Source of the DNA: Noviherbaspirillum massiliense JC206
GTDB taxonomy: Bacteria; Pseudomonadota; Gammaproteobacteria; Burkholderiales; Burkholderiaceae_D
Assembly (NCBI RefSeq): GCF_000312045.1
Contig: NZ_HE978635.1
Location: forward strand, 250,674 to 314,673
Direction of reading: 5' to 3'
DNA length: 64,000 nt
Notes under the pieces: generated by a model
The model's database searches: none
What the model saw: only the letters and a program-made list of their open reading frames with translations
Told to the model about the DNA's origin: nothing
Program-made: the position numbers and the translations under genes
In this document: positions 21,280-42,911 of the stretch, piece after piece
Numbering within the stretch: position 1 is the stretch's first letter
Layout of the letters: every line of letters begins with the position of its first letter

Positions 21280-21972
21280 CTAATTCTGACCTCCAGGTGG
21301 ATATTGCGCTGCCAGCGCATGCGGCAAGTACACGCCGGGGTAGCCTGCCTGCCGATCGGCTTGCCATAGCGCCCGCGAACACCGTAGCTGTTCCTGGAGC
21401 GAACAGCGAAAACCATCGGGCAGCATGAGGACGCAGTCCTTTCCTCCCTTGCCTTCGCGAACAATGATCAGCTTCCGGTCAAAATCGAGATCCTTCACGC
21501 GCAGCGACAATGCTTCGCGCAGCCGCAAACCGATGCCGTAGAGCAGGCGCGCAAGGAAGCCGGTGACCCCGTCCATTAGCGACAGAATTTGCCGTACCTC
21601 GTCGACGGTGAGCACCACCGGGATGTGTTTGGTCGGCACCGGGCGGCCAATTTCCTGTAGCCACGGCAATTCCAGATCCAGCACTACCTTGTACAGGAAT
21701 AATAACGCGCTGAGCGCCTGGCGATAGGTCGAGGGCGACGTCTGCCGGCCATTGGCCAGCACGAAAAGAAAGGCTTCGACTTCTTTCCCTCCCGCCTCTT
21801 TCGGATGCCGCAAATCCTGCCAGCGGATGTACCACCGGATCCGGCACACATAACTCTTTTCAGTACGCAAGCTGTAATGCAGGTAGCGCAACCGCTCGCG
21901 CACCTGGTCCAGCAGCCGCGCGGACCTCAAAACCGGCTTGCTTGGTTTTTCGTTTGCGTTAAGACTGTGCAT
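21280..21972 (-). pseudogene. intI: Integron integrase gene, truncated and frameshifted (integron 1)
   Basis: From the Met at 21972 the frame runs 230 residues. It matches IntI from LLDQVRERLRYLHYSLRTEKSY through the first catalytic Arg (LLYGIGLRLREALSL), VREGKGGKD and the integron-specific stretch up to ALAAQYPPGG, then stops. Full IntI proteins have about 100 further residues with [10 protein letters not shown] and the nucleophile Tyr; these are missing. A frame change right at the stop plus loss of the 3' part makes it inactive. A LexA box overlaps the start; a longer in-frame start exists at 22047. Confidence 0.85.
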
Positions 21973-21980
21973 ATGTACAG
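21965..21980. promoter_or_regulatory. LexA (SOS) box of the integron 1 integrase
   Basis: CTGT-GCATATGT-ACAG is an exact match to the LexA core CTGT-N8-ACAG, with a palindromic ATAT-like centre. It overlaps the likely intI start on the minus strand, where SOS boxes controlling integron integrases are known to lie. Confidence 0.8.
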
Positions 21981-22012
21981 CAGGGGCGGCGAAAGCCGAG
22001 TCTGCAAGCCGG

Positions 22013-22042
22013 CTGGCAGAAAACGGACAAGGGATGTTATAC
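22013..22042 (+). promoter_or_regulatory. Candidate cassette promoter Pc, integron 1
   Basis: CTGGCA (22013-22018) and TTATAC (22037-22042), with an extended-10 TG, are 18 bp apart and point into the array. This is the position expected for Pc between intI and attI. It is a plausible but unproven match. Confidence 0.35.
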
Positions 22043-22055
22043 GACAAGACGCCAT

Positions 22056-22092
22056 GTTAAATTGGCATTTTGCGATCTATAACAAGTTAAAC
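22056..22092 (+). other. attI site, integron 1
   Basis: A core GTTAAAC (22086-22092) fits the GTTRRRY integrase consensus and is preceded by AACAA as in classical attI. A second GTTAAAT lies 30 bp upstream at 22056-22062. The first cassette starts immediately after. The recombination point would fall between G and TT of the core. Confidence 0.65.
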
Positions 22093-22102
22093 GGATAAAT
22101 GC

Positions 22103-22345
22103 ATGGGCAGCTGGAAACCAGTTGGTGTAGTAGTTGAAGGTGAGTCGCTTTTCGTAGACGGCATCGACGTCTGGAACAGCGGTTGGACGCGAGCCGACCA
22201 GCCCGCGGTATCGCTGGCCCACCCAAGCTATGTGAACCAGATGCACGAAATGCCGGTATATCAGATTTCTGAAGATGGAAAAACCATTACTTTTGCATGC
22301 ACCGAGGTTTCAGCTAATGTCTATGCTTTTTATGTTCCCGTTTAA
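22103..22345 (+). CDS. Integron 1 cassette 1: small hypothetical protein
   Basis: An 80-residue soluble protein ([23 protein letters not shown]... VSANVYAFYVPV), with beta-rich character and no signal peptide. No family recognised. It is the first cassette, starting 10 bases after the attI core, so it would be read from Pc. GC is clearly lower than the flanking chromosome, as usual for cassettes. Its stop codon overlaps the R'' end of its own attC. Confidence 0.6.
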   Translation: MGSWKPVGVVVEGESLFVDGIDVWNSGWTRADQPAVSLAHPSYVNQMHEMPVYQISEDGKTITFACTEVSANVYAFYVPV

Positions 22346-22393
22346 CACATCGCTCGACCCGGACGCTACGCGCCGGTCAGCTTAGCGCTAGGC
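22340..22393 (+). other. attC site 1 of integron 1
   Basis: R'' GTTTAAC (22340-22346) and R' GCTAGGC (22387-22393, one mismatch to GTTRRRY) flank an imperfect palindrome centred on GACCCGG...CCGGTC. Length 54 bp. Confidence 0.6.
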
Positions 22394-22398
22394 TTCGG

Positions 22399-22710
22399 AT
22401 GGATGAGACAAAAGACATCGAAACCGTTTCGCAGTACATGAAGGCGGCAGCAGACGGACCATTTTTTCCTGAATGGGAGTTCCAAACCCTCTTTGGACTA
22501 GAGCGCGCGACTGTAAGAGAACTCGCAAATAAATTGTCGGCGACTACTCCAGTAACGGAAGACATGATTATTGCTGCGTGCAATACTTTTGCGAACCTAT
22601 TTGGTTATCCATGTGGTTTTTCCAGAGAGTGGAAAAAGTGGGTAACGGTACCGCCGGAGCAAGCGGAGCTGGCCTTTGAAAGATGGCGGGCGAAATATGC
22701 ACCAGCCTAA
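22399..22710 (+). CDS. Integron 1 cassette 2: hypothetical protein
   Basis: A 103-residue, Trp- and Glu-rich soluble protein (EWEFQTLFGLERATVRELANKL... FSREWKKWVTVPPEQAELAF). Predicted mostly helical; the middle resembles a helix-turn-helix-like segment, but not enough to assign. No known family recognised. It begins six bases after the previous attC and ends inside its own attC, the compact layout of a real cassette. Confidence 0.6.
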   Translation: MDETKDIETVSQYMKAAADGPFFPEWEFQTLFGLERATVRELANKLSATTPVTEDMIIAACNTFANLFGYPCGFSREWKKWVTVPPEQAELAFERWRAKYAPA

Positions 22711-22761
22711 CTTGGCAATCGACATCGGCTGCTTCGCGGCCGGTCATCTCAAACCTTAGGT
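22705..22761 (+). other. attC site 2 of integron 1
   Basis: R'' GCCTAAC (22705-22711) and R' CTTAGGT (22755-22761, first base off consensus) enclose GGCTGCTTCGCGGCC, a typical attC loop region. Length 57 bp. Confidence 0.6.
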
Positions 22762-22841
22762 AGCACAGAAGACACATCGCAGCTGTCACAGCGCTGAGAA
22801 TAGGTGCCAACGGAAATTCGCTTGATGAAAGGTAGAGCACC

Positions 22842-23183
22842 ATGGCCAAGTATCTGATCTCCTTCCTTAGCGCGGCGATGGCCGTAACGGACGGCGAGTG
22901 GGAGGCGGTGAGCCGCGACGCGCACGCCGTGATTGACGAGGCGAAAGCTGCCGGCGTCTACGTCTTCAGAGGCGGAATCGACGAAAACGTACCGCCCATG
23001 CTCGTCGCGGCAGATGGCGTGGTCGCCGAGGGTGGCTATCCGTGGGCACCTCCGCTAGACGGCGGCTTCACCGTCCTAGAGTTGCCCTCGCGCGACGAGG
23101 TCGTCGCGTGGGCCGCGCGCATCGCTAAAGCTTGTCGCTGCCCCCAGGAGCTGCGCGTCTTCGGGTTCGACCCGCAGTCCTGA
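22842..23183 (+). CDS. Integron 1 cassette 3: YciI-like (DGPF) protein
   Basis: A 113-residue protein of the YCII-related superfamily: KYLISFLSAAMAVTDGEW, DGGFTVLELPSRDEVVAWAARIA and the C-terminal ELRVFGFDP are diagnostic. These ferredoxin-fold dimers are often found in other cassettes or next to ECF sigma factors; catalysis is unproven. GC is markedly higher than in neighbouring cassettes, so it came from a different donor. AAAGGTAGAGCACC precedes the ATG. Confidence 0.8.
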   Translation: MAKYLISFLSAAMAVTDGEWEAVSRDAHAVIDEAKAAGVYVFRGGIDENVPPMLVAADGVVAEGGYPWAPPLDGGFTVLELPSRDEVVAWAARIAKACRCPQELRVFGFDPQS

Positions 23184-23213
23184 GGGCAGCACAGAAATCG
23201 CGCAGACAGTGCA

Positions 23214-23273
23214 GCCTAACAAATCATCCAAGCCGAGTTTGCTTCGCGGCGCGGCTTGATTCCGGTGTTGTGT
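23214..23273 (+). other. attC site 3 of integron 1
   Basis: R'' GCCTAAC (23214-23220) and R' GTTGTGT (23267-23273). The arms ATCCAAGCCG and CGGCTTGAT pair except for one unpaired C, matching the extrahelical base that sets attC strand choice. Length 60 bp. Confidence 0.75.
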
Positions 23274-23308
23274 CCACCCGATCCAATCGTTATGTAACAG
23301 AGACCTTT

Positions 23309-23638
23309 ATGATCAAAGTTAGTATTCTGTATCCTAATCAAAGTGGTGTCAGGTTCGACTTCAAGTACTACACCGAGGTCCATATGCCGCGGTCTATTCA
23401 GCTACTGAGCGCACATCCTGGTTTTAGGAGCGTCTCTGTTGAGCGTGGCGCCGGTGGGGCAGCGCCTGATTTAGCGCCAGCGTATATCGCCATGTGTCAC
23501 TTCCAGTTCACAACCGTCGAGGCATTTTTAGAGGCTTTCATGCCTCACGCTTCAGAGCTACAAGGCGATATGCCAAACTACACCGATGCTGAAGCCGTCA
23601 TTCAATTTAATGAGGTTCTTATTGAGCAAAGGAAATAG
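23309..23638 (+). CDS. Integron 1 cassette 4: EthD-domain protein
   Basis: A 109-residue EthD-type ferredoxin-like protein: IKVSILYPNQSGVRFDFKYYTEVHMPRSI, then MCHFQFTTVEAFLEAF and the typical C-terminal YTDAEAVIQFNEV. EthD proteins are small dimers linked to degradation of ethers and other compounds, with no settled reaction. The ATG giving MIKVSI was chosen because the frame upstream runs through the preceding attC. Confidence 0.8.
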   Translation: MIKVSILYPNQSGVRFDFKYYTEVHMPRSIQLLSAHPGFRSVSVERGAGGAAPDLAPAYIAMCHFQFTTVEAFLEAFMPHASELQGDMPNYTDAEAVIQFNEVLIEQRK

Positions 23639-23702
23639 CTTGTGGCTCGACACGGATGGCGCGTCGCGGTCCCGTTTGGCTCGGCGTTAAAGCTAGATGT
23701 GA
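23636..23702 (+). other. Probable attC site 4 of integron 1
   Basis: R' GTTAAAG (23696-23702, last base off) follows an imperfect palindrome around GGATGGCGCGTCGCGGTCC. The R'' end near the stop codon is degenerate, so the left limit is approximate. Confidence 0.4.
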
Positions 23703-23777
23703 ATAGCGAGGCTACAAGCCTTTAGATTAAAAGAGATCAGGCCCAAGCCTCTAAAGTGATTAGGTGGTGTATCTGAT

Positions 23778-24230
23778 ATGGAAGCGATACAGTCATTCTT
23801 TCTCATGATTGCGATCCTGCTAGGGTCAGTCTTTTTCACCGTCTTTGGACGCGATTTGTTGCGAAGGATGTCCCCACAAAATTGGGAGAAAATCAGCGGG
23901 CGCATTTGTAATGCGGTCGTCGAGCAAACTCAGGATATGGACGGGCCAAAACGGTTCAAAGGTAGAGTGGACTATGACTATGTCTACCGCGCTGTCATAC
24001 GACGTGGCTGCCATTTTATCGGTGACCGATATACTGGATATCATGAGGCCAATGAATTATTGAAATGCTATATGCCCGGACATCCTATCGATGTCTTTGT
24101 TTACAAAAATGACCCTCAACACAGTTCTTTACATATCAAACTGCATCCCATGTACTTCGTGGCGCCCTTGTTTGGACTGGGCTTTGTATGCTTCGGTATT
24201 TATCGGTTATGGGCATTGGTTGCGCAATAA
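23778..24230 (+). CDS. Integron 1 cassette 5: DUF3592-like membrane protein
   Basis: A 150-residue protein with an N-terminal helix (FFLMIAILLGSVFFTVFGRDL), a soluble beta-rich middle (RVDYDYVYRAVIRRGCHFIGDR, LLKCYMPGHPIDVFVYKNDP) and a second helix near the end (YFVAPLFGLGFVCFGIYRL). This is the two-helix plan of DUF3592 proteins, whose role is unknown. Integron 2 carries a protein of the same plan (40226-40660). Confidence 0.7.
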   Translation: MEAIQSFFLMIAILLGSVFFTVFGRDLLRRMSPQNWEKISGRICNAVVEQTQDMDGPKRFKGRVDYDYVYRAVIRRGCHFIGDRYTGYHEANELLKCYMPGHPIDVFVYKNDPQHSSLHIKLHPMYFVAPLFGLGFVCFGIYRLWALVAQ

Positions 24231-24234
24231 TGCG

Positions 24235-24294
24235 AGTTAACTTATCGCTTAACAGGGATGCCGCCTCGCGGCCGTCTTCAGCTTGGCGTTAGCA
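24235..24294 (+). other. attC site 5 of integron 1
   Basis: R'' AGTTAAC (24235-24241) with a second GCTTAAC at 24247, R' GTTAGCA (24288-24294), and the loop core GCCGCCTCGCGGC. Length 60 bp. Confidence 0.65.
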
Positions 24295-24310
24295 GGCATT
24301 TGGAGCCCAC

Positions 24311-24826
24311 ATGGAACGTTATGTAGCTTTTCTCCGAGGCGTCAGCCCGATGAATTGCAAGATGCCGGAACTCAAGCTGTGCTTCGAAGCCGCAGGCTTT
24401 AGCGGGGTAAAGACGCTGCTGTCCAGTGGGAACGTGGCGTTCTCGGCCAAACCGGAGATCGTGCCCATTCTGGAAAAGGCAGCACAGGAAGCGATGACGA
24501 AGCACCTTGGTAGGGTATTTTTGACCATTGTCCGGCCATCAGTTTTTCTTAGGGGGCTCGTCGAACGGATGCCTTTCAGAGAATTTGACTTCCCTGCAAA
24601 CTCGAAGCCGGTCATCACGTTTCTGCGAAAACCGTACGAAGAAGCAATTGTTCTCCCAATCGAGCAAGCTCAAGCCTCAATTTTGAGGCTTGAGCGCACC
24701 GAAGTTTTCTCGAGCTATGTACCAAATGAGAGGGGGCCGGCTTTCATGGCCTTGCTTGAGAAAACATTCGGCAAAGAGATCACAACAAGAACGTTAGACA
24801 CAGTCAGAAAGTGCTCTGTGGCATAG
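24311..24826 (+). CDS. Integron 1 cassette 6: DUF1697 protein
   Basis: A 171-residue DUF1697 protein. The family start MERYVAFLRGVSP and the NCKMPELKLCFEAAGFSGVKTLLSSGNVAF block are unmistakable; the usual GINVGG is changed to GVSPMN. No function is established for the family. Length is close to the usual 175-180 residues. The gene begins 16 bases after the attC R' box. Confidence 0.85.
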   Translation: MERYVAFLRGVSPMNCKMPELKLCFEAAGFSGVKTLLSSGNVAFSAKPEIVPILEKAAQEAMTKHLGRVFLTIVRPSVFLRGLVERMPFREFDFPANSKPVITFLRKPYEEAIVLPIEQAQASILRLERTEVFSSYVPNERGPAFMALLEKTFGKEITTRTLDTVRKCSVA

Positions 24827-24867
24827 AGCGAGATTCGCCTCCAGCAGCTCCAACATGATTGTGCGCA

Positions 24868-24924
24868 GCTCAACCATCAAATCAGATAAAGCCCGCCAAC
24901 TGGTTGTTCATAAGAACGTTATAA
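24868..24924 (+). other. Possible attC site 6 of integron 1
   Basis: GCTCAAC (24868-24874) and GTTATAA (24918-24924) fit R'' and R' loosely, but the arms between them do not pair well. The site may be decayed. Confidence 0.3.
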
Positions 24925-24931
24925 GGCAGCT

Positions 24932-25216
24932 ATGAATCAAGCTTCTAGGAAGGTGAATTGTGCAGAGCATGGAGAAGCAGAAATTTCCTTCGTCTGCATT
25001 CACATTGCCAAGGCCATTGACGGCGGAGAGAAAGTAGGCTTCTTTTGGTCAGAGGCAGAAGAAGGCCTGCCACCGATTGCATGGTGCGGTGCTTGCGAAG
25101 ATTGGCTTCTCCAGAACGGCGAAGAATGGAGTGAGTCATTTAAGAGCAGAGCAGATTTCAAACTCATTTGCGCAGGCTGCTTCACGCTTGCCAAGCAAGT
25201 TATTTACGGTAGCTAG
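24932..25216 (+). CDS. Integron 1 cassette 7: hypothetical Cys-rich protein
   Basis: A 94-residue protein with cysteines at NC-x3-H, FVCIH, WCGACEDW and ICAGC. These could bind zinc, giving a small zinc-ribbon-like fold (two CxxC-like knuckles). No named family recognised. There is no signal peptide, so it should be cytosolic. Lower GC than the host chromosome supports cassette origin. Confidence 0.6.
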   Translation: MNQASRKVNCAEHGEAEISFVCIHIAKAIDGGEKVGFFWSEAEEGLPPIAWCGACEDWLLQNGEEWSESFKSRADFKLICAGCFTLAKQVIYGS

Positions 25217-25224
25217 GTTTAGCG

Positions 25225-25295
25225 TTCTAACCACTCGTTCAAAGCGAAAGATAGACTCTGCGCGGTTATTTTGCCGCATAACTCCAACGTAAGCC
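25225..25295 (+). other. attC site 7 of integron 1
   Basis: R'' TTCTAAC (25225-25231) and R' GTAAGCC (25289-25295), each one base off consensus. Length 71 bp. Confidence 0.45.
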
Positions 25296-25302
25296 CCATA
25301 AC

Positions 25303-25689
25303 ATGAGACGACTCGCAGCCATATTTCTACTCACCTATTCGGCATTTTGTGCCGCTGCGGACTGTCGTCCGGAAGGCGACTACCAGAGGCCGGGTAAGCA
25401 TGACGATGAATTGACGGTAACTAAAGACAATGATGAATTCGAGCTGGGTCTTTCCACTTCGGGCCAGTTGATGGCTGACGGTGTTCGTACAATTGGCGCC
25501 ATCAAAGGGCCATTGTCGATGTCAAGCGATGGTTGCGTCGGCGCGCTTATCAGTCCGGATGACGACTGCACCTTGTTTGTAGAGTTTGGCGTCTCCTCGG
25601 CAACGGTGCACCAATTTGGCAGTTGTAATTTCGGGAATGGAGCCTGGGGTGGCGGAAAGTACAGAAGGCTCAAGCAGCCGCGGAGTTAA
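25303..25689 (+). CDS. Integron 1 cassette 8: secreted hypothetical protein
   Basis: A 128-residue exported protein with a short signal peptide (RRLAAIFLLTYSAFCAAA), four to five Cys likely in disulfides (CRPEGDY, GCVGAL, DDCTLF, GSCNFG) and a beta-rich body. No family recognised. It is the last cassette of the array; its stop lies within the terminal attC. Confidence 0.6.
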   Translation: MRRLAAIFLLTYSAFCAAADCRPEGDYQRPGKHDDELTVTKDNDEFELGLSTSGQLMADGVRTIGAIKGPLSMSSDGCVGALISPDDDCTLFVEFGVSSATVHQFGSCNFGNGAWGGGKYRRLKQPRS

Positions 25690-26162: not shown

Positions 26163-26570
26163 ATGGGCATGCTGAGTGAGTTTAAAGAGTTCGCCCTGAA
26201 GGGGAATGTCATGGACCTTGCGGTCGGTGTCATTATCGGTGCCGCATTTGGCAAGATCGTCGATTCCCTGGTGAATGACATCATCATGCCGGTGATCAGC
26301 AAGGTGTTCGGCGGACTGGACTTCAGCAATTACTTTATTCCGCTCGCCGGGCAATCTGCTTCCACGCTGGCCGAGGCCAAGCAAGACGGCGCGGTGCTTG
26401 CCTACGGCAACTTCATCACTGTTGCACTCAACTTCCTCATCCTGGCCTTCATCGTCTTCCTGATGGTCAGGGCGGTGAACCGACTCAGAAGATCAAGCCC
26501 CGCGGCTCCCAAGGCGCCTGCGGAAGAAGTGGTTCTTCTGCGTGAAATCAGGGACAGCCTGAAAAGATAA
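26163..26570 (+). CDS. mscL: Large-conductance mechanosensitive channel MscL
   Basis: A 135-residue Msc[40 protein letters not shown] is the conserved TM1 gate, then [21 protein letters not shown] as TM2, with the cytoplasmic helix [12 protein letters not shown] at the end. A homopentamer in the inner membrane releases solutes on hypo-osmotic shock. GGGGGATTAGGGT lies upstream. The 3' end forms the hairpin GGGACAG/CTGTCCC (26551-26579) spanning the stop. Confidence 0.95.
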
Positions 26571-26609
26571 GCCTGTCCCTTAACGCGTTAAGCAATGGGA
26601 AGAGGATGG

Positions 26610-26831
26610 CTATTCATTCTTCCCAAACATGCCACCAAGGCTGGATCCCATGCCGCCAAGCTTGCCAGCCATGCCCGCGTCGCCGCTCATCAGGCTATCG
26701 ATTTGAGAGCCAACCGGCCCGGGTAGCTTTTCCTTCAGGAAGTCGACCACTGTTTCCACGGCAGTCGCCGCCTTGTCTTCCGGCAGTCCCGTTCTTTCGA
26801 TCAGACGCTGAATCATCTCGTTCATGTTCAT
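26610..26831 (-). CDS. Small DUF2267-like helical protein
   Basis: A 73-residue protein: NEMIQRLIERTGLPEDKAATAVETVVDFLKEKLP is the two-helix pattern seen in DUF2267-like proteins, followed by a Gly/Met-rich tail ending in a short hydrophobic GGMFGKNE. Function unknown. A good ribosome site (CCAGAGGAAT in its sense) precedes the ATG. It converges with mscL. Confidence 0.65.
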   Translation of the reverse strand: MNMNEMIQRLIERTGLPEDKAATAVETVVDFLKEKLPGPVGSQIDSLMSGDAGMAGKLGGMGSSLGGMFGKNE

Positions 26832-27234
26832 TCCTCTGGAGTGGTGGGAATGTGAGCACCGTGCTCATTCCATGATTACAGCGAAACATGGATAGCGGGA
26901 TGTAGCGAGCATTATCTACAGGGCGGTTGAATTACCTCAATGTCCTTACCTTCGTCCCGAGGGCATTCCATTGCAACCACGTGGCAGTCGCCGGGGAATT
27001 GTTCCGGGTATCAAGAAGGCTGCGTCTGGAGCCTGCTGGTCCAAGCCCAAATAAGCGAACTCGAGGATGGCAGGTCGTGGCTGCCGGTGCGATCTTGCCG
27101 GGCGGACCGCTGCAGCCGCCGCTCGCAGCCCATCCGGCCTAGCGTCACCAACAAAGCCTGCTTCGCTGGAAAGCGGCGATGCCCCAAGCCGTTGATCTGC
27201 TACGGGCTTGCGAACATCGCCGGGCACTATGCCT
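26832..27234. other. Intergenic stretch, no gene seen
   Basis: Several overlapping short frames, none with a start signal or family resemblance. It probably holds the promoter of the small gene to its left and the 3' region of the fasciclin gene. Confidence 0.4.
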
Positions 27235-28239
27235 TCACAGCGTCGGGATGAGAACCTTGTCGATGACATGGACGACGCCGTTGCTTGCTTCGAGGTCGGT
27301 CACTGTGACGTTTGCCGTCGTGCCGGTCGCATCCTTGATGGTAATGGCGGAGCCGTTGCCGAACTGGATGCTCTGCTGCGCCAGGGTCGAGACCGGCACG
27401 CCGAACGGGAGGTCCGCCGCGCGCAGTTCGGAGTCGAGCGCATGGTATTTCAGCACGGTAGCCAGCTGCGTAGCGCCGAGACCTGACGGCGCCTTGGCAA
27501 ACGCTGCATCGGTCGGGGCGAGTACGGTGAAAGGGCCGGTGCCGTTCAGCACACTCTGCAGGCCGGCAGTGCTAACGGCCTTGGCGAGGGCGGTGAGGTT
27601 TGGGTTCACCTGGGCCATCTGTACGACGGTAAGCACGCCGGGCGGCACCAGCACCTTGTCGATTACGTGGATCACGCCGTTGCTCGCCGCGACGTCGGCG
27701 GTGGCGACGTTGGCAACCGTGCGCGCAGCGTCGGTGAGCTTGATGCCGTCGCTGCTGTCGAGCGCCAGGCTGACCGCACAATCCGCGCGACGATACAGCG
27801 TCTCCTGAATCGGGCCGTTGGTGCTCAGGATGGCTGCGTTCTTTGCGGCAGGCAGTACGTGATAAAGGAGCACGCTTTGCAAGGTGGACGCGGGCAAGGC
27901 ATTGACCATCGCGTTCGCATCGGCAAATCCCAGCCCGGCCGCCAACCGGTTGAACGCGGCGTCGGTCGGCGCAAATACCGTCAGGCGGCGGTTGGCATCA
28001 CTCAGCGCGGCGCCCAGGTTGGCCTTGGTGGCCGCTGCAAGTAATGCATTGAAGCCGCGCTGCTGCGCAACCTCGACAATGCTGCCGGCAGATTGGGCGT
28101 TGCCCATGCCGCCGGATTGCTGGGCGGATGACGCTGCGGACTGGGCAGGTGGCGCATCGGTGGCGCCGGCGTTGCCGCCGCAGGCGGCCAGCACTGTGCC
28201 CGTCAACAGGAGGATGAGGAACTTGGCAGGGTATTTCAT
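27235..28239 (-). CDS. Lipoprotein with two fasciclin (FAS1) domains
   Basis: A 334-residue protein with lipobox LAAC (residues about 17-20), a Ser/Ala/Gln linker and two FAS1 domains, each with LTVFAPTDAAF or FTVLAPTDAAF (H1 box) and NGVIHVIDKVLVP or NGVVHVIDKVLIP (H2 box). FAS1 proteins mediate adhesion or matrix binding at the cell surface. AGGAGACTGCC precedes the ATG; frames upstream of it lack a signal. Same strand as, and 141 bases after, the DUF378 gene. Confidence 0.85.
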   Translation of the reverse strand: MKYPAKFLILLLTGTVLAACGGNAGATDAPPAQSAASSAQQSGGMGNAQSAGSIVEVAQQRGFNALLAAATKANLGAALSDANRRLTVFAPTDAAFNRLAAGLGFADANAMVNALPASTLQSVLLYHVLPAAKNAAILSTNGPIQETLYRRADCAVSLALDSSDGIKLTDAARTVANVATADVAASNGVIHVIDKVLVPPGVLTVVQMAQVNPNLTALAKAVSTAGLQSVLNGTGPFTVLAPTDAAFAKAPSGLGATQLATVLKYHALDSELRAADLPFGVPVSTLAQQSIQFGNGSAITIKDATGTTANVTVTDLEASNGVVHVIDKVLIPTL

Positions 28240-28824: not shown

Positions 28825-28883
28825 ACGGTGCGTACAATGACCTTAATTCCGATCCACCTGCACCGCGTGACAAGCTTTTTCTT

Positions 28884-35562: not shown

Positions 35563-35963
35563 ATTCCCTCCCTTCGGCGGGTCGCAGGGGTTTCGCACCG
35601 CATGCGCTGCGCCAGCGGAGACGTGCACCGCACGTGGGGATAGGGCGAACAACACCCGCTAATGCAACCCATCCCATCCAGACCTTCCCCTTGAAGGCGA
35701 AGGAGCTGTGAATCTAGAGCGGTTTCCACAAGCCTGAAGAAGGAAAGTAGGGTGCGCCGTGCGCACCGGGATGGCATGGTGCGCGCGGCGCCCCCTGCTT
35801 CTGAGTGGCCCGCGGTGCTTGCCTGTTGTCGCGTGGACGGGGATCGAGGTGTTGGGCATCCCTGCGCAGGCAGGGATGTGTTGTCATTGTCAGTGCCGGG
35901 AGCGCTGACCCGGCATGTTGGGCGCGCCCTTTGCCAATCCCTGACAGGGCGCGGGGGGAAGGA
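35563..35963. other. Intergenic stretch carrying the dispersed repeat
   Basis: No gene supported. The stretch contains repeat copy 2 (35724-35805). Nothing else notable was seen. Confidence 0.4.
35724..35805. repeat. Dispersed palindromic repeat, copy 2
   Basis: TTCCACAAGCCTGAA then AAAGTAGGGTGCGCCGTGCG matches copy 1 at 21-67 with few differences; the right arm (GCGCCCCCTGCTT) is more diverged than in copy 1. The two copies are 35.7 kb apart in the same orientation. Confidence 0.6.
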
Positions 35964-36260
35964 TCACGACGCCGGCGCCGGCGGCACATTGCCGCGCTTG
36001 CTATTCTGTTCTTCCGCCTTGAGGGAATCCTTCACCCGCTGCAGCCGGGCGTAGGCTTCCGGGTCTTCCTCGGCGAGTTTCTTCTGGCGCCAGTTATAAA
36101 AAATCATCAAGCCCAGCGTGGCTGCTGCGCCAATGGCGAGTTTTCCTTTATGCTCGCTCAATAGGCTTTTCGCGCTTTTTTTGGCCGACGCGTCGTCGGC
36201 CTTTGCCTGGTTCTCCTCGGGTGTGGCCGGCTTTACGGCACTGGAATCGTTTTCCATCAT
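35964..36260 (-). CDS. Small membrane-anchored hypothetical protein
   Basis: A 98-residue protein: an acidic/Lys-rich N-terminus (VKPATPEENQAKADD), one membrane helix (LAIGAAATLGLMIFYNW) and a charged C-terminal helix (LAEEDPEAYARLQRVKDSLKAEEQ). No family recognised. Two adjacent ATGs (36260 and 36257) are possible starts. It is divergent from the exonuclease gene. Confidence 0.55.
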   Translation of the reverse strand: MMENDSSAVKPATPEENQAKADDASAKKSAKSLLSEHKGKLAIGAAATLGLMIFYNWRQKKLAEEDPEAYARLQRVKDSLKAEEQNSKRGNVPPAPAS

Positions 36261-36450
36261 GTTCAGCCTTGAAAATTCCTTCTGGAAGCGCAATTGCGAT
36301 TCCAGTGAGTGTCTAAAAAATCGGATAGGTCCATTGGATGTTCCTTTGCTGAAATAGTTTCGGGATCTGAACACTTCTGTTCAGTTTTCGTACCGAGTGC
36401 GTTCCAGGTAAAGCCGGAAAGAATCTGAAAGGAAAACAATTTTGCATGAC

Positions 36451-37893
36451 ATGCAGGAAAAGGATGCGCTGGGCGAGCCGCCCCAGCTCGGGTTGAGCAA
36501 GGTGCTGGCCGTCCTGTCGGCGGCGAAGTATCCGCGCCTGGCGTTCGTCGACCTTGAAACCACCGGCGGCGCAGCCAACGAAGACCGCATCACCGAGATC
36601 GGCATCATCGAAGTCGATGAAGACGGCGTGCGCGAATGGACCAGCCTCGTCAATCCGCAGGTGCGCATTCCGGAATTCATCCAGTCGCTGACCGGCATCA
36701 CCGATGAGATGGTGCGCGACGCGCCGATCTTTGCGGAACTGGCCGACGAAGTCGCGGCGCGGCTCGCGGACCGGGTCTTCATCGCCCACAATGCGCGCTT
36801 TGATTATGGTTTTCTCAAGAATGAATTCCGCCGCACCGGCCACAACTTCCGGCCCCCGGTGCTGTGCACGGTGCGCCTGTCGCGCAAGCTGTTCCCGGGA
36901 TTTTCCCGCCACAACCTCGATGCGCTCGCGGAGCGGCATCGGCTGCAAGTCACCGAGCGCCACCGCGCGCTCGGCGACGCCCAGCTGATCTGGCAGTTCT
37001 GGCAAAAGATTCATGAAGCGCACGAGCCCGAGGCGATCGAGGAAGCGGTATCGAAGCTGATCAGCCGGCCCACCCTGCCGGCGCGGCTGGATGACCTGCA
37101 GGTCGAGGCGATCCCGAAGACGCATGGCGTCTACCTCTTCTATGGCGAAAACGACCTGCCGCTCTACATCGGCAAGGCGAACAACCTGCGCCGCCGCGTG
37201 CTTTCGCACTTCAGCGGCGATCATGTCACTTCGAAGGAACAGGCGCTGACTCAGCAGATCGAGCGCGTCGAATGGATCGAGACCGGCGGCGAAGTCGGCG
37301 CGCTGCTGCAGGAAGCCGCCCTCGTCAAGCAGCTCATGCCCTCCTATAACAAGCAGCTGCGCGCCAATGAAAAGATCTGTTCCTGGCGCCTGCTGATGCG
37401 CAAGGGCCGGCTGCAGCCGGCGCGCGCAACCATCGACGACCTGTTCTTCGCCTACGACCCGCAGCTGTACGGCCTGTACACCAGCGCGCGCCAGTCCACC
37501 GAAGCCCTGAAGGCGATCGCCGAGGAACACGGCCTGTGCCCGGTCCTGCTCGGCCTGCAGAAGGGCGAAGCCGGCAAGCCCTGCTTCGCCAGCCAGGTCG
37601 GCAAATGTCGCGGCGCCTGCTGCGGCAAGGAGAGCATCGAATCCCACAACGAACGCCTGCAAGCCGCCATGCAGCCGCACCACCTGCAACCCTGGCCGTA
37701 TGCCAGCGCCATCGGCATCCTCGAAGGCGACATGCTGCATGTCGTCGACGGCTGGGCCTACCTCGGCTCCGCCCGCCCCGCGTCCGAAGCCTACGCCCTG
37801 CTGCAGAAAGGCCAGCAGCGCTTCGACCAGGATGTGTACCAGATTCTGCAGAAGTGGCTGCCGAAGCTGGGGGAAGGGATAGTGCGCTTCTGA
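36451..37893 (+). CDS. DEDDh exonuclease / GIY-YIG (Cho-like) nuclease fusion
   Basis: About 480 residues in two domains. The N-terminal DEDDh 3'-5' exonuclease has AFVDLETTGG (D34, E36), LTGITDEMV, FIAHNARFDYGFL and HRALGDAQ. From about residue 225 a GIY-YIG domain like UvrC/Cho follows (HGVYLFYGENDLPLYIGKANNLRRRVLSHF), with a Cys-rich GKCRGACCGKE segment. It probably trims or incises damaged DNA. A TTG start three codons upstream is possible, since AAAGGAAAA lies closer to it. Confidence 0.85.
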   Translation: MQEKDALGEPPQLGLSKVLAVLSAAKYPRLAFVDLETTGGAANEDRITEIGIIEVDEDGVREWTSLVNPQVRIPEFIQSLTGITDEMVRDAPIFAELADEVAARLADRVFIAHNARFDYGFLKNEFRRTGHNFRPPVLCTVRLSRKLFPGFSRHNLDALAERHRLQVTERHRALGDAQLIWQFWQKIHEAHEPEAIEEAVSKLISRPTLPARLDDLQVEAIPKTHGVYLFYGENDLPLYIGKANNLRRRVLSHFSGDHVTSKEQALTQQIERVEWIETGGEVGALLQEAALVKQLMPSYNKQLRANEKICSWRLLMRKGRLQPARATIDDLFFAYDPQLYGLYTSARQSTEALKAIAEEHGLCPVLLGLQKGEAGKPCFASQVGKCRGACCGKESIESHNERLQAAMQPHHLQPWPYASAIGILEGDMLHVVDGWAYLGSARPASEAYALLQKGQQRFDQDVYQILQKWLPKLGEGIVRF

Positions 37894-37927: not shown

Positions 37928-38980
37928 CTAACCGTGCGCCTGCATGGCAACTCCTCCTGACCTGTTTATATCTTCCCATCTGGAAGAATCCACATGGTCG
38001 ATCGGGGAAGTCACACCATGCCCGCCCTTGTTGAGGACGTGTGCATAGATCATCGTCGTACTGACGTCGCTGTGGCCGAGCAGCTCCTGAACGGTCCGGA
38101 TGTCGTATCCCGCTTCCAGCAAATGCGTGGCAAAACTGTGCCGCAGCGTGTGGGTGGAAGCGCTCTTGGTTAATTGTGCCGCCAGGACGGCACGCTTGAT
38201 GGCGCGCTGGATGCCCTGTTCATAAATGTGGTGGCGCCGGACAATGCCGGTGCGCGGATCAAGCGATTCATGGCCGGATGGGAAGACCCAGAACCAGCCC
38301 CATTGCGTGCCTGCCGAAGGATATTTCCGTTCCAACGCCCCGGGCAGCATGACTCCATTGCGCTTGTGCAAACGGTCGTCGTCGTAGCATTGCCTCGCGC
38401 GTGCGGCTTGTTCGCGCAGTGGCTGCACCAAGGACAGGGGAAGCATGGTCAGCCGGTCCTTGCCGCCTTTGCCTTGTCGCACCGTGATTTCCCTTCGCTG
38501 GAAATCCACATCCTTGATGCGCAACTGCGCGCATTCCATGAGCCGCATCCCGGTTCCGTACAGTAATTGCGCGATCAGGAGATAAACGCCTTCGAGTCGG
38601 GCAAACACCCGCTCGATTTCCTGGCGGGTCAGGACAGTCGGCTTTCGTACCGGCTTCACCGGACGCGTAACTTGATCGAGCCAGGGCAATTCGATTTGCA
38701 GCACATTCTTGTACAGGAAGAGCAGGGCACAGAGTGCCTGGTGATGAGTAGATACAGAAACCTTGCGTTCATTGGCAAGGAAGGAAAGGAAGGCGTGAAT
38801 TTCTGCGGCTCCCATCTCGGCGGGATGACGCATGCCATGAAAGCGGATATACCATCTTGCCCAATAGACATAGACGCGCTCCGTCCGCAGACTATAATGC
38901 TTGTCGCGAATGCAACGCCTGAGTTGATCCAGCAGTTTCGGTCGCTGCTCGGAAGCTAAGAGGGGGTTGACGTCTTTCAT
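37928..38980 (-). CDS. intI: Integron integrase (tyrosine recombinase), integron 2
   Basis: A 350-residue full-length IntI. Catalytic residues match class 1 numbering: R146 ([12 protein letters not shown]), K171/K172 in GKGGKD, H277 and R280 in [11 protein letters not shown]303 in GHSDVSTT, Y312. The integron-specific patch [21 protein letters not shown] is present at 215-235. It should recombine attI with attC. There is no ribosome site before the ATG. A LexA box lies 10 bp upstream, so SOS induction is likely. Its cassettes lie on the other side, read in the opposite direction. Confidence 0.95.
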
Positions 38981-38990: not shown

Positions 38991-39010
38991 TACTGGTGTT
39001 ATATACAGTA
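38991..39010. promoter_or_regulatory. LexA (SOS) box of the integron 2 integrase
   Basis: TACTG-GTGTTATATA-CAGTA differs from the 20-bp LexA consensus TACTGT-N8-ACAGTA only at the last base of the left CTGT. The outer five bases on each side are perfectly symmetrical. It lies 11-30 bp before the intI ATG. Confidence 0.8.
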
Positions 39011-39062: not shown

Positions 39063-39119
39063 TTATCAATCACCTGTCCAGATTATCAATCAGTCTGTGA
39101 CATATAAATCTAGTTAGGC
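39063..39119 (+). other. attI site of integron 2 with phased direct repeats
   Basis: The core GTTAGGC (39113-39119) is a perfect GTTRRRY box six bases before the first cassette ATG. Upstream, TTATCAATCA occurs twice, at 39063-39072 and 39083-39092, exactly 20 bp apart (two helical turns). This corresponds to the accessory integrase-binding direct repeats of attI1. Confidence 0.75.
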
Positions 39120-39124: not shown

Positions 39125-39535
39125 ATGGATGAGTTCGTAATCAAGTCTGAGAAGGAAGTAACGCTCACATTTCACTCACGGCGATTCAACTTCGACGGCT
39201 GGCTTGATACTTATTCTGTGTCTGCTAAAGCTCGTAATTTCAATGCACTCATTGAAGTAGAGAATCCGCCGTACGGTTTATCCCCGGCTGGGTTCTTTGG
39301 CGGCCTTGCCAACGAATGGTCAGGGTGGAAGGGAGAAAAAGGATGGGGTGCTATTGAGGGGGAATACAACTTATTAGCTACCAGTGATTCTCTCGGCCAC
39401 ATCACGTTAGTAGCCGAGCTAAATCTTAACGATGTAGTGCCAGGCTGGTCTGGCTCCGTATCACTTATCGTTGAAGCAGGCCAGCTTGAACAGTTAGCCC
39501 ATGACGCGAAGGAGTTCTTCAATGAAAAAGCCTAA
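39125..39535 (+). CDS. Integron 2 cassette 1: DUF6228-like protein
   Basis: A 136-residue soluble beta-rich protein. FFGGLANEWSGWKGEKGWGAIEGEYNLLATSDSLGHITLVAEL and EAGQLEQLAHDAKEF resemble DUF6228 proteins; I am fairly but not fully sure of that family name. Function unknown. First cassette after attI, hence best expressed. Its GC, near 48%, is clearly below the host, and its stop overlaps attC. Confidence 0.7.
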   Translation: MDEFVIKSEKEVTLTFHSRRFNFDGWLDTYSVSAKARNFNALIEVENPPYGLSPAGFFGGLANEWSGWKGEKGWGAIEGEYNLLATSDSLGHITLVAELNLNDVVPGWSGSVSLIVEAGQLEQLAHDAKEFFNEKA

Positions 39536-39592
39536 CTCAACAATGGACGCGGACAAGGCGCACGCGCCTTGCCGGTCATCTCAGCGTTAGCC
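39530..39592 (+). other. attC site 1 of integron 2
   Basis: R'' GCCTAAC (39530-39536) and R' GTTAGCC (39586-39592), both perfect, with the central palindrome CAAGGCGCACGCGCCTTG. Length 63 bp. Confidence 0.85.
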
Positions 39593-39612
39593 GCTACGAG
39601 GAATTCGCAGCC

Positions 39613-40173
39613 ATGGGACTTTTGACATTCAGCATCAACGTCACCCTCGACGGTTGCGTCGACCACCGGGAGGGGATCGCCGATGACGAGACACACACCT
39701 TCTTCACTCGCCTCATGGACGAAAGCGGGGCGATGCTGTGGGGCCGCGTTACCTACGAGATGATGGAGAGCTACTGGCCGGCGGTCGCCCGAGGCGACGT
39801 GAAGGCGCTGTCGCCAATCCGCGAGTGGGCGGTCAAGCTGGAGACTAAGCCGAAGTACGTGGTGTCGTCGACGCGGACGGTCTTTCCGTGGACCAATACC
39901 CACCACATCGCCGGCGACCTTCGCACGGAGGTGCAGAAACTGAAGGATGCGACTCCGGCCGGTGTGCTCCTTGGCAGCGGCAAGCTCGCGACCGAGTTGG
40001 ATCGACTGGATCTGATCGACGAGTACGTGTTTCTCGTTCACCCCAGAATCGCCGGGCACGGCCCGACTCTGTACCAGAGCGGGCTGCTCAGCACGCGACG
40101 GCTCGATCTGATCTCCGCGAAGCCGCTCCGTAGCGGCGCGGTCGCCATGCACTACCGGCGCGAGTGTGGCTAA
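39613..40173 (+). CDS. Integron 2 cassette 2: dihydrofolate-reductase-family (RibD C-domain) protein
   Basis: A 186-residue protein of the RibD C-terminal/DHFR-like fold: TFSINVTLDGCVD, GAMLWGRVTYEMMESYWP, KYVVSSTRTV, GVLLGSGKLATELDRLDLIDEYVFLVHPRIAG. Such proteins bind NADPH, and many are annotated as putative dihydrofolate reductases. Whether it gives trimethoprim tolerance is untested. It is not one of the small DfrB proteins. High GC compared with cassette 1 implies another source. AGGAATTCGCAGCC precedes the ATG. Confidence 0.85.
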   Translation: MGLLTFSINVTLDGCVDHREGIADDETHTFFTRLMDESGAMLWGRVTYEMMESYWPAVARGDVKALSPIREWAVKLETKPKYVVSSTRTVFPWTNTHHIAGDLRTEVQKLKDATPAGVLLGSGKLATELDRLDLIDEYVFLVHPRIAGHGPTLYQSGLLSTRRLDLISAKPLRSGAVAMHYRRECG

Positions 40174-40227
40174 CAATTCACTCAACCCGTCGCGGCTTCG
40201 CGGCGCACCTTAATTCAGGCGTTAAAT
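40168..40227 (+). other. attC site 2 of integron 2
   Basis: R'' GGCTAAC (40168-40174; second base off) and R' GTTAAAT (40221-40227), with the loop CGTCGCGGCTTCGCGGCG. Length 60 bp. The next ATG (40226) lies inside R'. Confidence 0.8.
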
Positions 40228-40660
40228 GCAAAGCCCCCTTGCCATTACCGCTCGCCTAATAATGTTTGCTGCATCCCTGGGCACTACGTTATTTGGGTTA
40301 AAGCTTCTCATGGACACGCTTTGGTTCCGTGCTAACAGCGTCGTAGTGCAAGGCAGCTATCTCGGAGATAGGGTCGATGAAGCGCTGACTGGCGACGCCT
40401 TATCCCGGCGTATGTATCGAGCGCGCGTTACCTTTCATTGCCCATTCACTCAGAAAAAGCGGACTGTGGTGGCATTCGCAGCATCCAGTGCTCAATCGGT
40501 GAGGTGGCCTGGTGAAAGAATGTCTGTACTTGTACATAGAGCACCTCCTCACCAGGCGAGGGTAAATACATTTGGAAATCTATACTTTTTGCCGCTTGCA
40601 ATGATTGCGTTCACCGCTCCTCTGGCATGGGCCATTGCGTTTATCACGCTTTCCCAATAG
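40226..40660 (+). CDS. Integron 2 cassette 3: DUF3592-like membrane protein
   Basis: A 144-residue protein with an N-terminal helix (ARLIMFAASLGTTLFGLKLLM), a soluble beta region (RMYRARVTFHCPFTQKKRTVVAF, GERMSVLVHRAPP) and a C-terminal helix (FLPLAMIAFTAPLAWAIAFITL). It has the same architecture as the integron 1 protein at 23778-24230, with low sequence identity. Function unknown. The start codon overlaps the preceding attC R' box, so no ribosome site is possible from the cassette itself. Confidence 0.7.
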   Translation: MQSPLAITARLIMFAASLGTTLFGLKLLMDTLWFRANSVVVQGSYLGDRVDEALTGDALSRRMYRARVTFHCPFTQKKRTVVAFAASSAQSVRWPGERMSVLVHRAPPHQARVNTFGNLYFLPLAMIAFTAPLAWAIAFITLSQ

Positions 40661-40698
40661 GCTGTCACAACAGATGTTGACAGGACTTGCACACCTGC

Positions 40699-40756
40699 AT
40701 TTAACACTTCATTGGACCCCGAAACGCTTACAGTGCGGTTCATTTAGGCGTTAGAT
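40699..40756 (+). other. attC site 3 of integron 2
   Basis: R'' ATTTAAC (40699-40705) and R' GTTAGAT (40750-40756), both perfect consensus. Length 58 bp. Confidence 0.8.
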
Positions 40757-40806
40757 GGAATGATCATTATTCACACTTGTACTGCAATATTCACTTCAGG
40801 AATTGA

Positions 40807-41184
40807 ATGTCAAAAGTTTATATCTATGTCAGCGATGCCGATATTAATGTAAGTTACGCGGTCATTGATCTTGAAAATCTGCCCGCTCCTACACCGAATC
40901 AATTGCTCTTATCTCAGGATCAACAAGGAATTGATATCGCTGCCTATCTGAGCTCGGATCAAGTGCGGGCAATCCGTATTGTGAAAAACATCTTTACAAA
41001 TGTAATCGACAAAGAGGCCGGGGAATTTTTGCTGCACTTGGCTCGCTTCTGCAAGAGCGTCTCGCCCTCCGCGACGGGAAAAAACGATTGGGTCGTGATG
41101 ATTTCGAACGAAAAGGCCAACGTGGTGAGGGTGACGCCAGAGTATGCAGCCCAGGCACATAGGAATGTGCTCGGCCTCCAGTAA
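40807..41184 (+). CDS. Integron 2 cassette 4: hypothetical protein
   Basis: A 125-residue soluble protein (KVYIYVSDADINVSYAVIDLENLPAP... KNDWVVMISNEKANVVRVTPEYAAQAHRN). Mixed alpha/beta, no signal, no recognised family. A 50-base leader separates it from the previous attC, and GGAATTGA before the ATG could serve as a weak ribosome site. Low GC. Confidence 0.6.
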   Translation: MSKVYIYVSDADINVSYAVIDLENLPAPTPNQLLLSQDQQGIDIAAYLSSDQVRAIRIVKNIFTNVIDKEAGEFLLHLARFCKSVSPSATGKNDWVVMISNEKANVVRVTPEYAAQAHRNVLGLQ

Positions 41185-41206
41185 ATCGATTCATGTATAT
41201 GAAACC

Positions 41207-41290
41207 ATTTAACGCACCGCTCAACCGGGACCCACAACCAAGTACAGTCGCGTCGCGGCCGCTGTAGTGGTCCGTTACCCGGCGTTGGAC
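41207..41290 (+). other. attC site 4 of integron 2
   Basis: R'' ATTTAAC (41207-41213) and R' GTTGGAC (41284-41290), both perfect, with the arms CCGGGACC and GGTCCGTTACCCGG around GTCGCGTCGCGGC. Length 84 bp, the longest in the array. Confidence 0.8.
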
Positions 41291-41297
41291 TCAAACC

Positions 41298-41987
41298 ATG
41301 ATACGGGCACCAGCGATACAGAAATTTTGGCCGACGACACAATCGCTTGATTTGGTCAGGGGCTCTGTCGATCTGGTTGCGACAGGCATTGAAGCGGAAG
41401 TCCGAAGATTTGCCGCGGGAGCGCGAATCGAGGCCGGCTGGCGCCGATTCGCAGATATATCTGAAGCTTTGTCGTCCTGTATGGAATACACCAACATCCC
41501 GACAATGTTTATCGTATTCCCGACAAACTCGCCATGGTCAGTCATTTGGAACAACAGCTTCCTCTGCGATGGGTATGACTCGTTGTGCTGGTGTCTCACA
41601 AAAAATCATGGTTTAACGACGCTCCACTGGGCATCTCACGACGAGAGCACGACTTTTCAACCCGGTACAAGCTTCATATATAGAACCATTCACGATGGAA
41701 CGGTCTGTGAACGCTCCGTTTCTTGCACTCAGGAAGACGCACGCTGGCTTTTCACTCAGAGCGGCGTTTCACTGCCGGAAGAGAACGTATCCCTCTATGG
41801 TGCAAAACGAAAAAGAGACCGGCTGAATGAGGCTGAAATGGTTCAGCTGTTGGGCCGATTCGGGGCCCGGCCATGGGATGAGAGCTTCTACTGTTTGCCG
41901 AAACAGGATTGTTTCGTACTACACCGAACAGAATTTCCAAGTTCTGTCGTACGGCGCTCGCCCGGAGAGGTGATATATGCCGTCTGA
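41298..41987 (+). CDS. Integron 2 cassette 5: hypothetical protein
   Basis: A 229-residue soluble protein, the largest cassette product in the window (SLDLVRGSVDLVATGIEAEVRRF, IVFPTNSPWSVIWNNSFLCDGYDSLCW, SLYGAKRKRDRLNEAEMVQLLGRFG). It has several Cys and Trp residues. The pattern recalls uncharacterised proteins of immunity-protein type that sample a partner's activity, but that is only an impression. No family recognised. Confidence 0.6.
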   Translation: MIRAPAIQKFWPTTQSLDLVRGSVDLVATGIEAEVRRFAAGARIEAGWRRFADISEALSSCMEYTNIPTMFIVFPTNSPWSVIWNNSFLCDGYDSLCWCLTKNHGLTTLHWASHDESTTFQPGTSFIYRTIHDGTVCERSVSCTQEDARWLFTQSGVSLPEENVSLYGAKRKRDRLNEAEMVQLLGRFGARPWDESFYCLPKQDCFVLHRTEFPSSVVRRSPGEVIYAV

Positions 41988-42044
41988 CATTCCTTTGCTG
42001 GACTCGGGAACACGCAAACAGGTGGGCCAATTTAAGCGTAAGTG
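41982..42044 (+). other. Possible degenerate attC site 5 of integron 2
   Basis: GTCTGAC (41982-41988) overlaps the stop and GTAAGTG (42038-42044) precedes the next gene. Both are one or two bases off consensus, and the arms pair poorly. Confidence 0.3.
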
Positions 42045-42059
42045 AATGAAGGCGCAACT

Positions 42060-42323
42060 ATGAGATTACGAGACTTGAAAAACCTTGGCCCGAAATCGGA
42101 AGAATGGCTGCCGAAGGTTGGGATTCATAGTGTCAAACAGTTGCAGGCTTCAGATCCTTTTGAGGTTTATGCCAGGTTAAGAGCTGCAATTCCGGGCGCA
42201 AATTTAAACGCCTTATATGCAATTATCGGTGCGGTTGAAGACAGGCATTGGCTGGACGTAAAAGAAAAGAACAAGACTGAAATTCTTTTACGTCTGGAGC
42301 AGATGGGCTTGGCGCCAAAATAA
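42060..42323 (+). CDS. Integron 2 cassette 6: TfoX C-terminal-domain protein
   Basis: An 87-residue protein: RLRDLKNLGPKSEEWLPKVGIHSVKQLQ is the helix-hairpin-helix start of TfoX_C domains, followed by YARLRAAIPGANLNALYAIIGAVEDRHW. In TfoX this domain accompanies competence regulation; stand-alone copies are common in cassettes and of unknown role. Starting at the ATG after GAAGG; a GTG six codons upstream lies in the attC-like region. Confidence 0.8.
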   Translation: MRLRDLKNLGPKSEEWLPKVGIHSVKQLQASDPFEVYARLRAAIPGANLNALYAIIGAVEDRHWLDVKEKNKTEILLRLEQMGLAPK

Positions 42324-42346
42324 ACCTGGCAAAGCCGCGACTCGCC

Positions 42347-42418
42347 GCTCAACCCGTACACGTAGCAAGGACGCACCGTTTTGTGGCAAGGGACGTGGGT
42401 CCGTAAACGGCGTTATGC
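42347..42418 (+). other. attC site 6 of integron 2
   Basis: R'' GCTCAAC (42347-42353) is perfect. R' GTTATGC (42412-42418) is a common variant of the core. Length 72 bp; the arms are imperfect. It precedes the acetyltransferase gene. Confidence 0.5.
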
Positions 42419-42434
42419 AATATTGGAGGTGTCC

Positions 42435-42911
42435 GTGTCTCTAAGAGTGCATCAGATCAAGCCAGATGAAGTCGCCCTAATGGAGGCGTTGTCATCGACC
42501 TTCGGCGACGCCTTTGCCGATGTGGAGACTTACACGGGCTATCGGCCACGTCCCGACTATCTGCGGCGGCTACTGGAAAGCGAGTATTTCATTGCGCTAG
42601 CTGCCTTGAAAAATGGCCAGGTCGTTGGCGGCCTTGCTGCATACGAGCTTAAAAAATTCGAGCAGGAGCGTAGCGAAATCTATATCTATGACCTGGCTGT
42701 CGCGAAACAGCACCGGCGCGAAGGAATTGCGACAGCGTTGATTGAAGGACTCAAGAAGATTGCGCAATCGCGCGGAGCCTATGTGATATTTGTGCAGGCG
42801 GATACTGCCGTTGAAGACGCGCCAGCCATTGCGCTGTACACCAAGCTGGGAGTACGCGAAGACGTCTTGCATTTTGATATTCCGGTCGGGCGAAAACATG
42901 ACGTTCCATAG
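42435..42911 (+). CDS. Integron 2 cassette 7: AAC(3)-I-type aminoglycoside acetyltransferase
   Basis: A 158-residue GNAT protein strongly resembling AAC(3)-I enzymes: [70 protein letters not shown] (acetyl-CoA loop) and [10 protein letters not shown]... [11 protein letters not shown]. These acetylate the 3-amino group of gentamicin-like drugs. A GTG start with GGAGG five bases upstream was chosen. It is the last cassette, and no clear attC follows, so it may be fixed. Activity is untested. Confidence 0.85.

Follow-up and report, generated by a model that had tools for sequence, protein, structure and literature searches.

The stretch analysed here (hereafter the window) comprises 64,000 nucleotides of Noviherbaspirillum massiliense JC206 (C2:250674-314673 of genome G000, an assembly of 4.19 Mb in 3 contigs) and holds two co-oriented integrons, integron A (21280-25689) and integron B (37928-42911). 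We consider it very probable that the two integrons are of different origin, that integron A has decayed, and that its attI site belongs to a dispersed family of attI elements, many of which look like integrase-less micro-integrons. Both integron integrase (IntI) genes lie on the minus strand, at 21280-22047 (A) and 37928-38980 (B) with 15.9 kb between them, and each is divergent from its own plus-strand array of small open reading frames (ORFs), eight in A and seven in B. GC content inside both arrays is about 0.51-0.53, lower than the 0.58-0.65 or so of the surrounding sequence. A first-pass annotation had described two co-oriented integrons in this region. Two IntI genes, arrays of eight and seven genes, attI cores, LexA-like boxes and attC sites were all recovered on reanalysis; the part of that description that fell is integrase A, which is a pseudogene.

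The relationship of the two integrases was analysed in an IntI tree of 71 rows, from which fragments whose best piece was shorter than 120 residues were left out. IntI-A groups with G012_C178, the intact IntI on contig 1 of its own genome, G030 and G312, and then with IntI3. IntI-B groups with seven rows that all come from the same genus (G005_C11, G001, two fragments of G010, G004, G012_C67 and G009), and the A and B clades are separated by forks with 100/99 support. IntI-A and IntI-B share 49% identity, while IntI-A is 70% identical to the contig 1 integrase of its own genome and IntI-B is 81% identical to the IntI of two congeners. Against the mobile classes, IntI-B shares 61% identity with IntI1 and IntI-A shares 58% with IntI3 over 217 amino acids, so that IntI-A is not the class 3 integrase itself and belongs to a neighbouring clade only. 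The first-pass annotation had left the choice between an ancient duplication and two independent acquisitions to a tree containing both sequences. The separate placement of A and B in that tree supports independent lineages, and hence independent acquisition rather than duplication as their likely history. A tandem duplication of one integron, followed by divergence and by decay of one copy, would fit the shared orientation and the 16-kb spacing, and such a case is present in the related genome G015 (89% identity, 34 kb). For the window pair we hold it to be highly improbable, given the low A-B identity, the strongly supported separation of the clades and the failure of the attI-A model to match at attI-B; the IntI tree led to its rejection.

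The integrase gene of integron A (intI-A, 21280..22047, minus strand) encodes the N-terminal part only of an IntI3-like integron integrase. The protein matches positions 1-207 of the 315 positions of TIGR02249 at 230 bits, which is under the curated cut-off (265) because the protein is truncated, and reading through one TGA and one TAG extends the match to position 228. Both integrases nevertheless have IntI (TIGR02249, PRK15417) as their best family match rather than a generic Xer protein, and the concern that either might be XerC-like was not borne out. The first Arg box and GKGGKD are retained in IntI-A; HxxR and LGHSD were not found in it, the second His and the Tyr are gone, and a tblastn search across 20.3-21.7 kb returned no C-terminal half. 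intI-A is a pseudogene and fails as a complete integrase, and, judged by the catalytic residues, the activity of integron A in cis is lost. A LexA-like box (CTGTGCATATGTACAG, 21965..21980) perfectly fits CTGT-N8-ACAG and overlaps a likely start codon of intI-A. The attI-A element (21954..22092, plus strand) consists of this box, two ATGTTA repeats and a GTTAAAC core (22086-22092) that fits GTTRRRY, and is matched at 21954-22091 by the attI model R3 described below. No sigma-70-like promoter site was found at attI-A in a scan. Cassette array A (22103..25689, plus strand) contains eight small ORFs with Pfam matches to YCII (weak), EthD, DUF3592 (weak) and DUF1697, four ORFs having no Pfam match. 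Its third ORF is 85% identical to a gene between both IntI loci of G004.

The integrase gene of integron B (intI-B, 37928..38980, minus strand) is intact. Its product of 350 amino acids scores 462 bits against TIGR02249 and 446 bits against PRK15417, both above cut-off. It contains MIYAHV and can be aligned with an integron integrase of known structure, 2a3v, over 311 residues. A LexA-like box with one mismatch to CTGT-N8-ACAG (CTGGTGTTATATACAG, 38993..39008) lies at the 5' end of intI-B, and the adjoining attI-B core (GTTAGGC, 39113..39119, plus strand) fits GTTRRRY, a short motif. The sigma-70 scan found two promoter-like sites at attI-B where 0.4 are expected. Cassette array B (39125..42911, plus strand) contains seven small ORFs with Pfam matches to DUF6228, RibD_C, TfoX_C and GNAT, three having no Pfam match. 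Its second ORF shares 72% identity with one of the cassettes of the G015 array, and the first 40 residues of a gene 92 nt beyond an orphan attI of G246 (with a mutated core) differ from those of this ORF in two. With an integrase above cut-off, attC sites after its cassettes and an attI core beside intI, integron B is a complete and probably working chromosomal integron. By homology to known systems, relief of LexA repression during the SOS response would allow IntI-B to insert circular cassettes at attI-B and to excise them at attC sites. SOS control of intI, the LexA consensus and the R''/R' consensus of attC sites are general knowledge. LexA-like boxes with up to one mismatch number 26 in the window against 14.9 (standard deviation 3.5) in shuffled sequence, so that a box alone says little, although those of intI-A and intI-B stand at the expected place.

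The attC sites were searched for with covariance models, as a regular-expression finder proved too strict (among the later-supported sites on the plus strand it recovered 40699 alone). Model R1 was built from 25 sites of six other genomes, none of them from the genome of the window; these sites had been chosen by the regular-expression finder for stem pairing, so that a good pairing score is partly built in. Model R2 drew on 25 sites from the genus, two of which belong to the genome of the window but lie at other loci, and the E-values of such home-made models are rough. Over the 64 kb at E<=10, R1 gave seven matches (E 1.2e-5 to 0.016), all on the plus strand and all in the arrays, four in A and three in B, with no R1 match elsewhere in the window at that threshold; with filters off, a minus-strand echo of the site at 39530 appeared (E 0.86). 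R2 likewise gave seven matches, all in the arrays, lacking the sites at 23214 and 25225 and adding weak ones at 24235 and 41207. The first-pass annotation had named a lack of significant attC sites in one region as the outcome that would speak against it, and both regions contain them.

Counting weak sites, a modelled attC follows five of the eight genes of A and four of the seven genes of B, all on the plus strand. In array A, the site after ORF 1 (22340..22393; R1 E 1e-4, R2 E 1.4e-7) has the R' core GCTAGGC, the site after ORF 2 (22705..22761; R1 E 0.0018, R2 E 4.9e-6) has CTTAGGT and the site after ORF 7 (25225..25295; R1 E 0.016, no R2 match) has GTAAGCC, the GTT being lost in all three. 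The site after ORF 3 (23214..23273; R1 E 1.2e-5, no R2 match) has GTTGTGT and a weak site after ORF 5 (24235..24294; R2 E 0.19, R1 E 0.93 with filters off) has GTTAGCA. In array B the sites follow ORF 1 (39530..39592, GTTAGCC; R1 E 0.0061, R2 E 1.8e-7), ORF 2 (40168..40227, GTTAAAT; R1 E 0.0022, R2 E 0.035), ORF 3 (40699..40756, GTTAGAT; R1 E 0.011, R2 E 0.0012) and, weakly, ORF 4 (41207..41290, GTTGGAC; R2 E 0.37). The GTT of the R' core is kept in two of five A sites, four of four B sites and eight of nine other sites of the same genome, where 150 of about 3,870 candidates were scored. On these small numbers the attC cores of A look to be eroding. Integron A is best described as a decayed IntI3-like integron: the C-terminal catalytic part of its integrase is gone, and erosion of its attC cores appears to be under way.

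The attI-A element of about 140 bp (LexA-like box, direct repeats and GTT core) occurs in seven copies in its own genome, which has one intact cognate intI. A 68-bp attI-A query gave six matches in this genome, the window copy included, and the attI of the intact contig 1 integron is 91% identical to attI-A over 57 bp. Scoring at most three matches per genome, the same query found matches at E<=1e-3 in 20 of 294 genomes of the bacterial family. The better copies share (A/G)TGTTAAAYCGCAA...CATGTTAAATTGGCATTTTGCGATYTATAACAAGTTRRRY, and a perfect CTG-N10-CAG box begins 62-64 bp ahead of this shared block in 12 of 31 copies, one of the 12 being window A. Five of these 12 are orphans, that is, copies without an integrase match nearby. 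Among 30 homologous attI loci other than window A, 11 have such a box within 1 nt of the place of the attI-A box. A sequence-only model (R3; 140 positions, 17 sequences from 10 genomes) was then scanned across the family with strict filters and 11 candidates scored per genome. R3 matched 62 of the 294 genomes at E<=0.01, where about three are expected by chance if the E-values are right, in 21 of 44 genera; at E<=1e-5 it matched 37 of 294 genomes, or 27 of 284 without the 10 training genomes. The matches total 140; 17 of them sit immediately 5' of an IntI row, where an attI is expected, and 123 lie elsewhere. Copies per genome at E<=0.01 reach 10 in G030, nine in G078 and seven each in G000, G012 and G061. 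A blastn comparison of the 141-bp attI-A element with plasmid and phage collections gave nothing at E<=0.01.

Several loci merit separate description. An integrase-less array at C2:899496-902097 of the same genome (L104) has an attI and five attC sites, four of the five with intact cores, and at most a 20-residue remnant of intI (E 1.9). Both ends of contig 1 (C1:1-2000 and C1:3151631-3152253; L039 and L105) break inside attI-A cassette arrays; if this contig is circular, the intact IntI3-like integron would face an orphan attI array, as do the two integrons of G004, which are convergent and 25 kb apart. Two single strong attC sites (C1:1810498-1810554 and C1:708365-708448; L203 and L204) have no attI copy or IntI listed nearby and are possibly lone cassettes at secondary sites. 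The 2.3-Mb genome G078 (L215-L222) has no IntI match at E<=1e-40. At E<=0.01 it carries nine attI-like copies; the majority belong to one subtype, and four have no attC match after them.

A closer analysis was made of 52 further copies in 50 loci, window A excluded, of which 30 came from the 68-bp query and 22 were picked from the R3 matches, mainly those in multi-copy genomes. A tblastn search at E<=1e-3 found an IntI match within 2.5-3 kb of 10 of the 52 copies and none for the other 42. An attC match follows 32 of the 52 copies. Among the 42 orphans, 23 have at least one attC, and so have the content of a cluster of attC sites lacking an integron integrase (CALIN), and 19 have none. The copies are associated with attC sites in a fixed orientation: out of 57 attC matches at E<=0.05, 56 are found on the same strand downstream of the copy, the remaining one is on the same strand upstream, and the other strand has none. 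This count leaves out rows at E>0.05 (L234:4803, upstream on the same strand, and seven others downstream) and two loci devoid of any attI copy (L203 and L204), and it includes some matches that were R2 training sites (L178, L039 and L040). In 37 of the 52 copies an ATG opens an ORF of at least 60 amino acids 0-30 nt beyond the core, compared with 16.5% of 10,400 random positions, and the GTT[AG] core is kept in 39 copies. We interpret the orphan elements, which in many cases are followed immediately by one to five cassettes, as integrase-less micro-integrons that would derive from complete integrons through loss of intI and local copying.

Several points weigh against this interpretation. The 52 copies are not a random sample, and the search would have missed an integrase that lies beyond 3 kb, is separated by a contig break or has decayed too far. 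As many as 20 of the 52 copies lack a downstream attC match and 13 lack the GTT[AG] core; therefore some copies are fossils or chance matches. R3 also weakly matches attI sites of other clades (clade-B attI of G012 at E 1.8e-5, G005 at 0.004 and G001 at 0.0055) and the attI of an IntI3 plasmid (E 0.007), and so is not specific to IntI3-like integrons. The difference in R' cores between A and the remaining sites is based on five sites. Finally, copying may not be the cause of the likeness of copies within a genome, described below, which could also stem from co-evolution with a former integrase.

The origin of the orphan sites admits more than one explanation. They may all be fossils, many complete integrons having been acquired and their intI deleted, with attI and its promoter persisting by driving captured genes and nothing acting in trans; we rate the chances of this as about even. 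Stages of intI loss are indeed seen within one genome, from the intact gene on contig 1 through truncated A and a shredded copy at C2:860k to the possible 20-residue remnant at C2:899k. A LexA-like box is kept at the same offset in five orphans, and of the 37 genomes that carry a copy at E<=1e-5, 20 are absent from the list of 40 IntI-positive genomes. Repeated independent acquisition can hardly explain up to 10 copies per genome (E<=0.01) or the genome-specific subtypes formed by several copies in G030 and G078, two copies of G030 sharing 304 bp at 90% identity. The promoter part is unsupported, as no sigma-70-like site was found at attI-A. Among 39 copies from multi-copy genomes, 24 are most similar to another copy of their own genome, and none of 1000 label shuffles reached the observed within-minus-between difference, in a test that ignores host relatedness. 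On the right, the homology between copies of one genome ends at the GTT core or close to it; on the left it covers about 35-304 bp. This pattern would also fit a dispersed unit made up of a gene and an attI that takes the role of attC (a delta-attI-type cassette); insertion of such units at secondary sites by an integrase would scatter attI. Mobile integrons are reported to include cassettes of this type (PMC12901181). We think this origin improbable, since the shared stretch adjoining attI among the orphans of one genome does not exceed 304 bp and includes no whole shared gene leftward (ORFs were listed, not compared as proteins), and several orphans keep a LexA-like box in their left flank.

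Dispersed micro-integrons may alternatively form a distributed integron, in which the one intact IntI3-like integrase of contig 1 would serve orphan attI platforms, A included, that receive cassettes in trans, and in which attI would spread within genomes to up to about ten capture sites each, most of them without an integrase. We offer this only as a tentative possibility, somewhat doubtful at present. The intact integrase could still act in trans on orphan attI sites of its own genome, and integron A is a putative target of it, as the attC sites of A are of IntI-B. If orphan attI sites still work, an integron would consist of several capture sites served by a single enzyme instead of one locus, and the gene-capturing capacity of environmental bacteria would be undercounted, because the standard tool seeks integrases and attC sites and not attI outside class 1. 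If they are fossils, orphan attI sites would mark the former places of integrons and would explain some CALINs as attI-bearing integron remnants.

Comparison with known systems further defines the unusual features of these loci. The window pair resembles chromosomal integrons with class 1- and class 3-related IntI in its integrases, LexA-like boxes, attI sites and attC arrays, but the arrays are small (7-8 ORFs) and the A integrase is truncated. The integrase-less arrays resemble CALINs in having cassettes with attC and no integrase; unlike CALINs they start at an identifiable attI, in some cases accompanied by a LexA-like box, and occur several per genome. Xanthomonas is known to have CALINs dispersed outside its main integron (PMC12444791), and a CALIN with its own attI is reported for one Shewanella prophage (PMC9892861). 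The latter is likewise an integrase-less array with its own attI in a genome that also has a complete integron, but it is one case in one prophage, whereas the copies described here are dispersed family-wide. No report of dispersed multi-copy attI was found by title or abstract start in the open-access literature. On that search the dispersed attI-bearing, integrase-less arrays appear to be a new form of an already known arrangement, whereas several intI per genome and pseudogene intI are already known.

By published figures, 20-22% of intI-bearing genomes carry more than one intI and about one third of intI genes are pseudogenes (PMC2426708, PMC9024848). The rarity initially ascribed to tandem integrons therefore applies at most to their closeness, several intI per genome being well documented. 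IntI matches at E<=1e-40 occur in 40 of the 294 family genomes, 14 of which have more than one match row. Two IntI matches lie within 35 kb in at least three of these 14 (G000, G004 and G015), a lower bound given contig breaks, and in three of the five multi-match assemblies of 10 contigs or fewer. The pair itself is of a known kind and its closeness is less usual. A true integron duplication is present in G015 (C1:5165337-5200386; L044-L046), in which an IntI fragment and an intact IntI are 89% identical and 34 kb apart and the attC sites of the duplicated arrays are identical or nearly so. In a synteny comparison of 34 relatives and the window's own genome, no exonuclease, antiporter or MscL match lies within 35 kb of a listed IntI, the nearest case being a second mscL in G048, 38 kb from IntI. 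In both the window and G004, the MerR-DUF-fasciclin genes lie 3' of the IntI of clade B; in the drafts of G009 and G012 they are on a different contig from IntI.

The integrons are separated by ordinary genes (26163..37893) that agree with the initial description of this interval as running from mscL to an exonuclease, with Pfam matches to MscL, fasciclin, MerR-B12, serpin, CBS, cation efflux and exonuclease-GIY-YIG. In the window as a whole, an Rfam scan gave no family reaching its gathering score and a tRNA scan gave none. The serpin gene (30768-32096; Pfam E 9e-93), which lies between both integrons, is unusual for a betaproteobacterium. To the right of array B, a gene at 46460-47041 encodes a CdiI-like immunity protein (Pfam E 4e-7).

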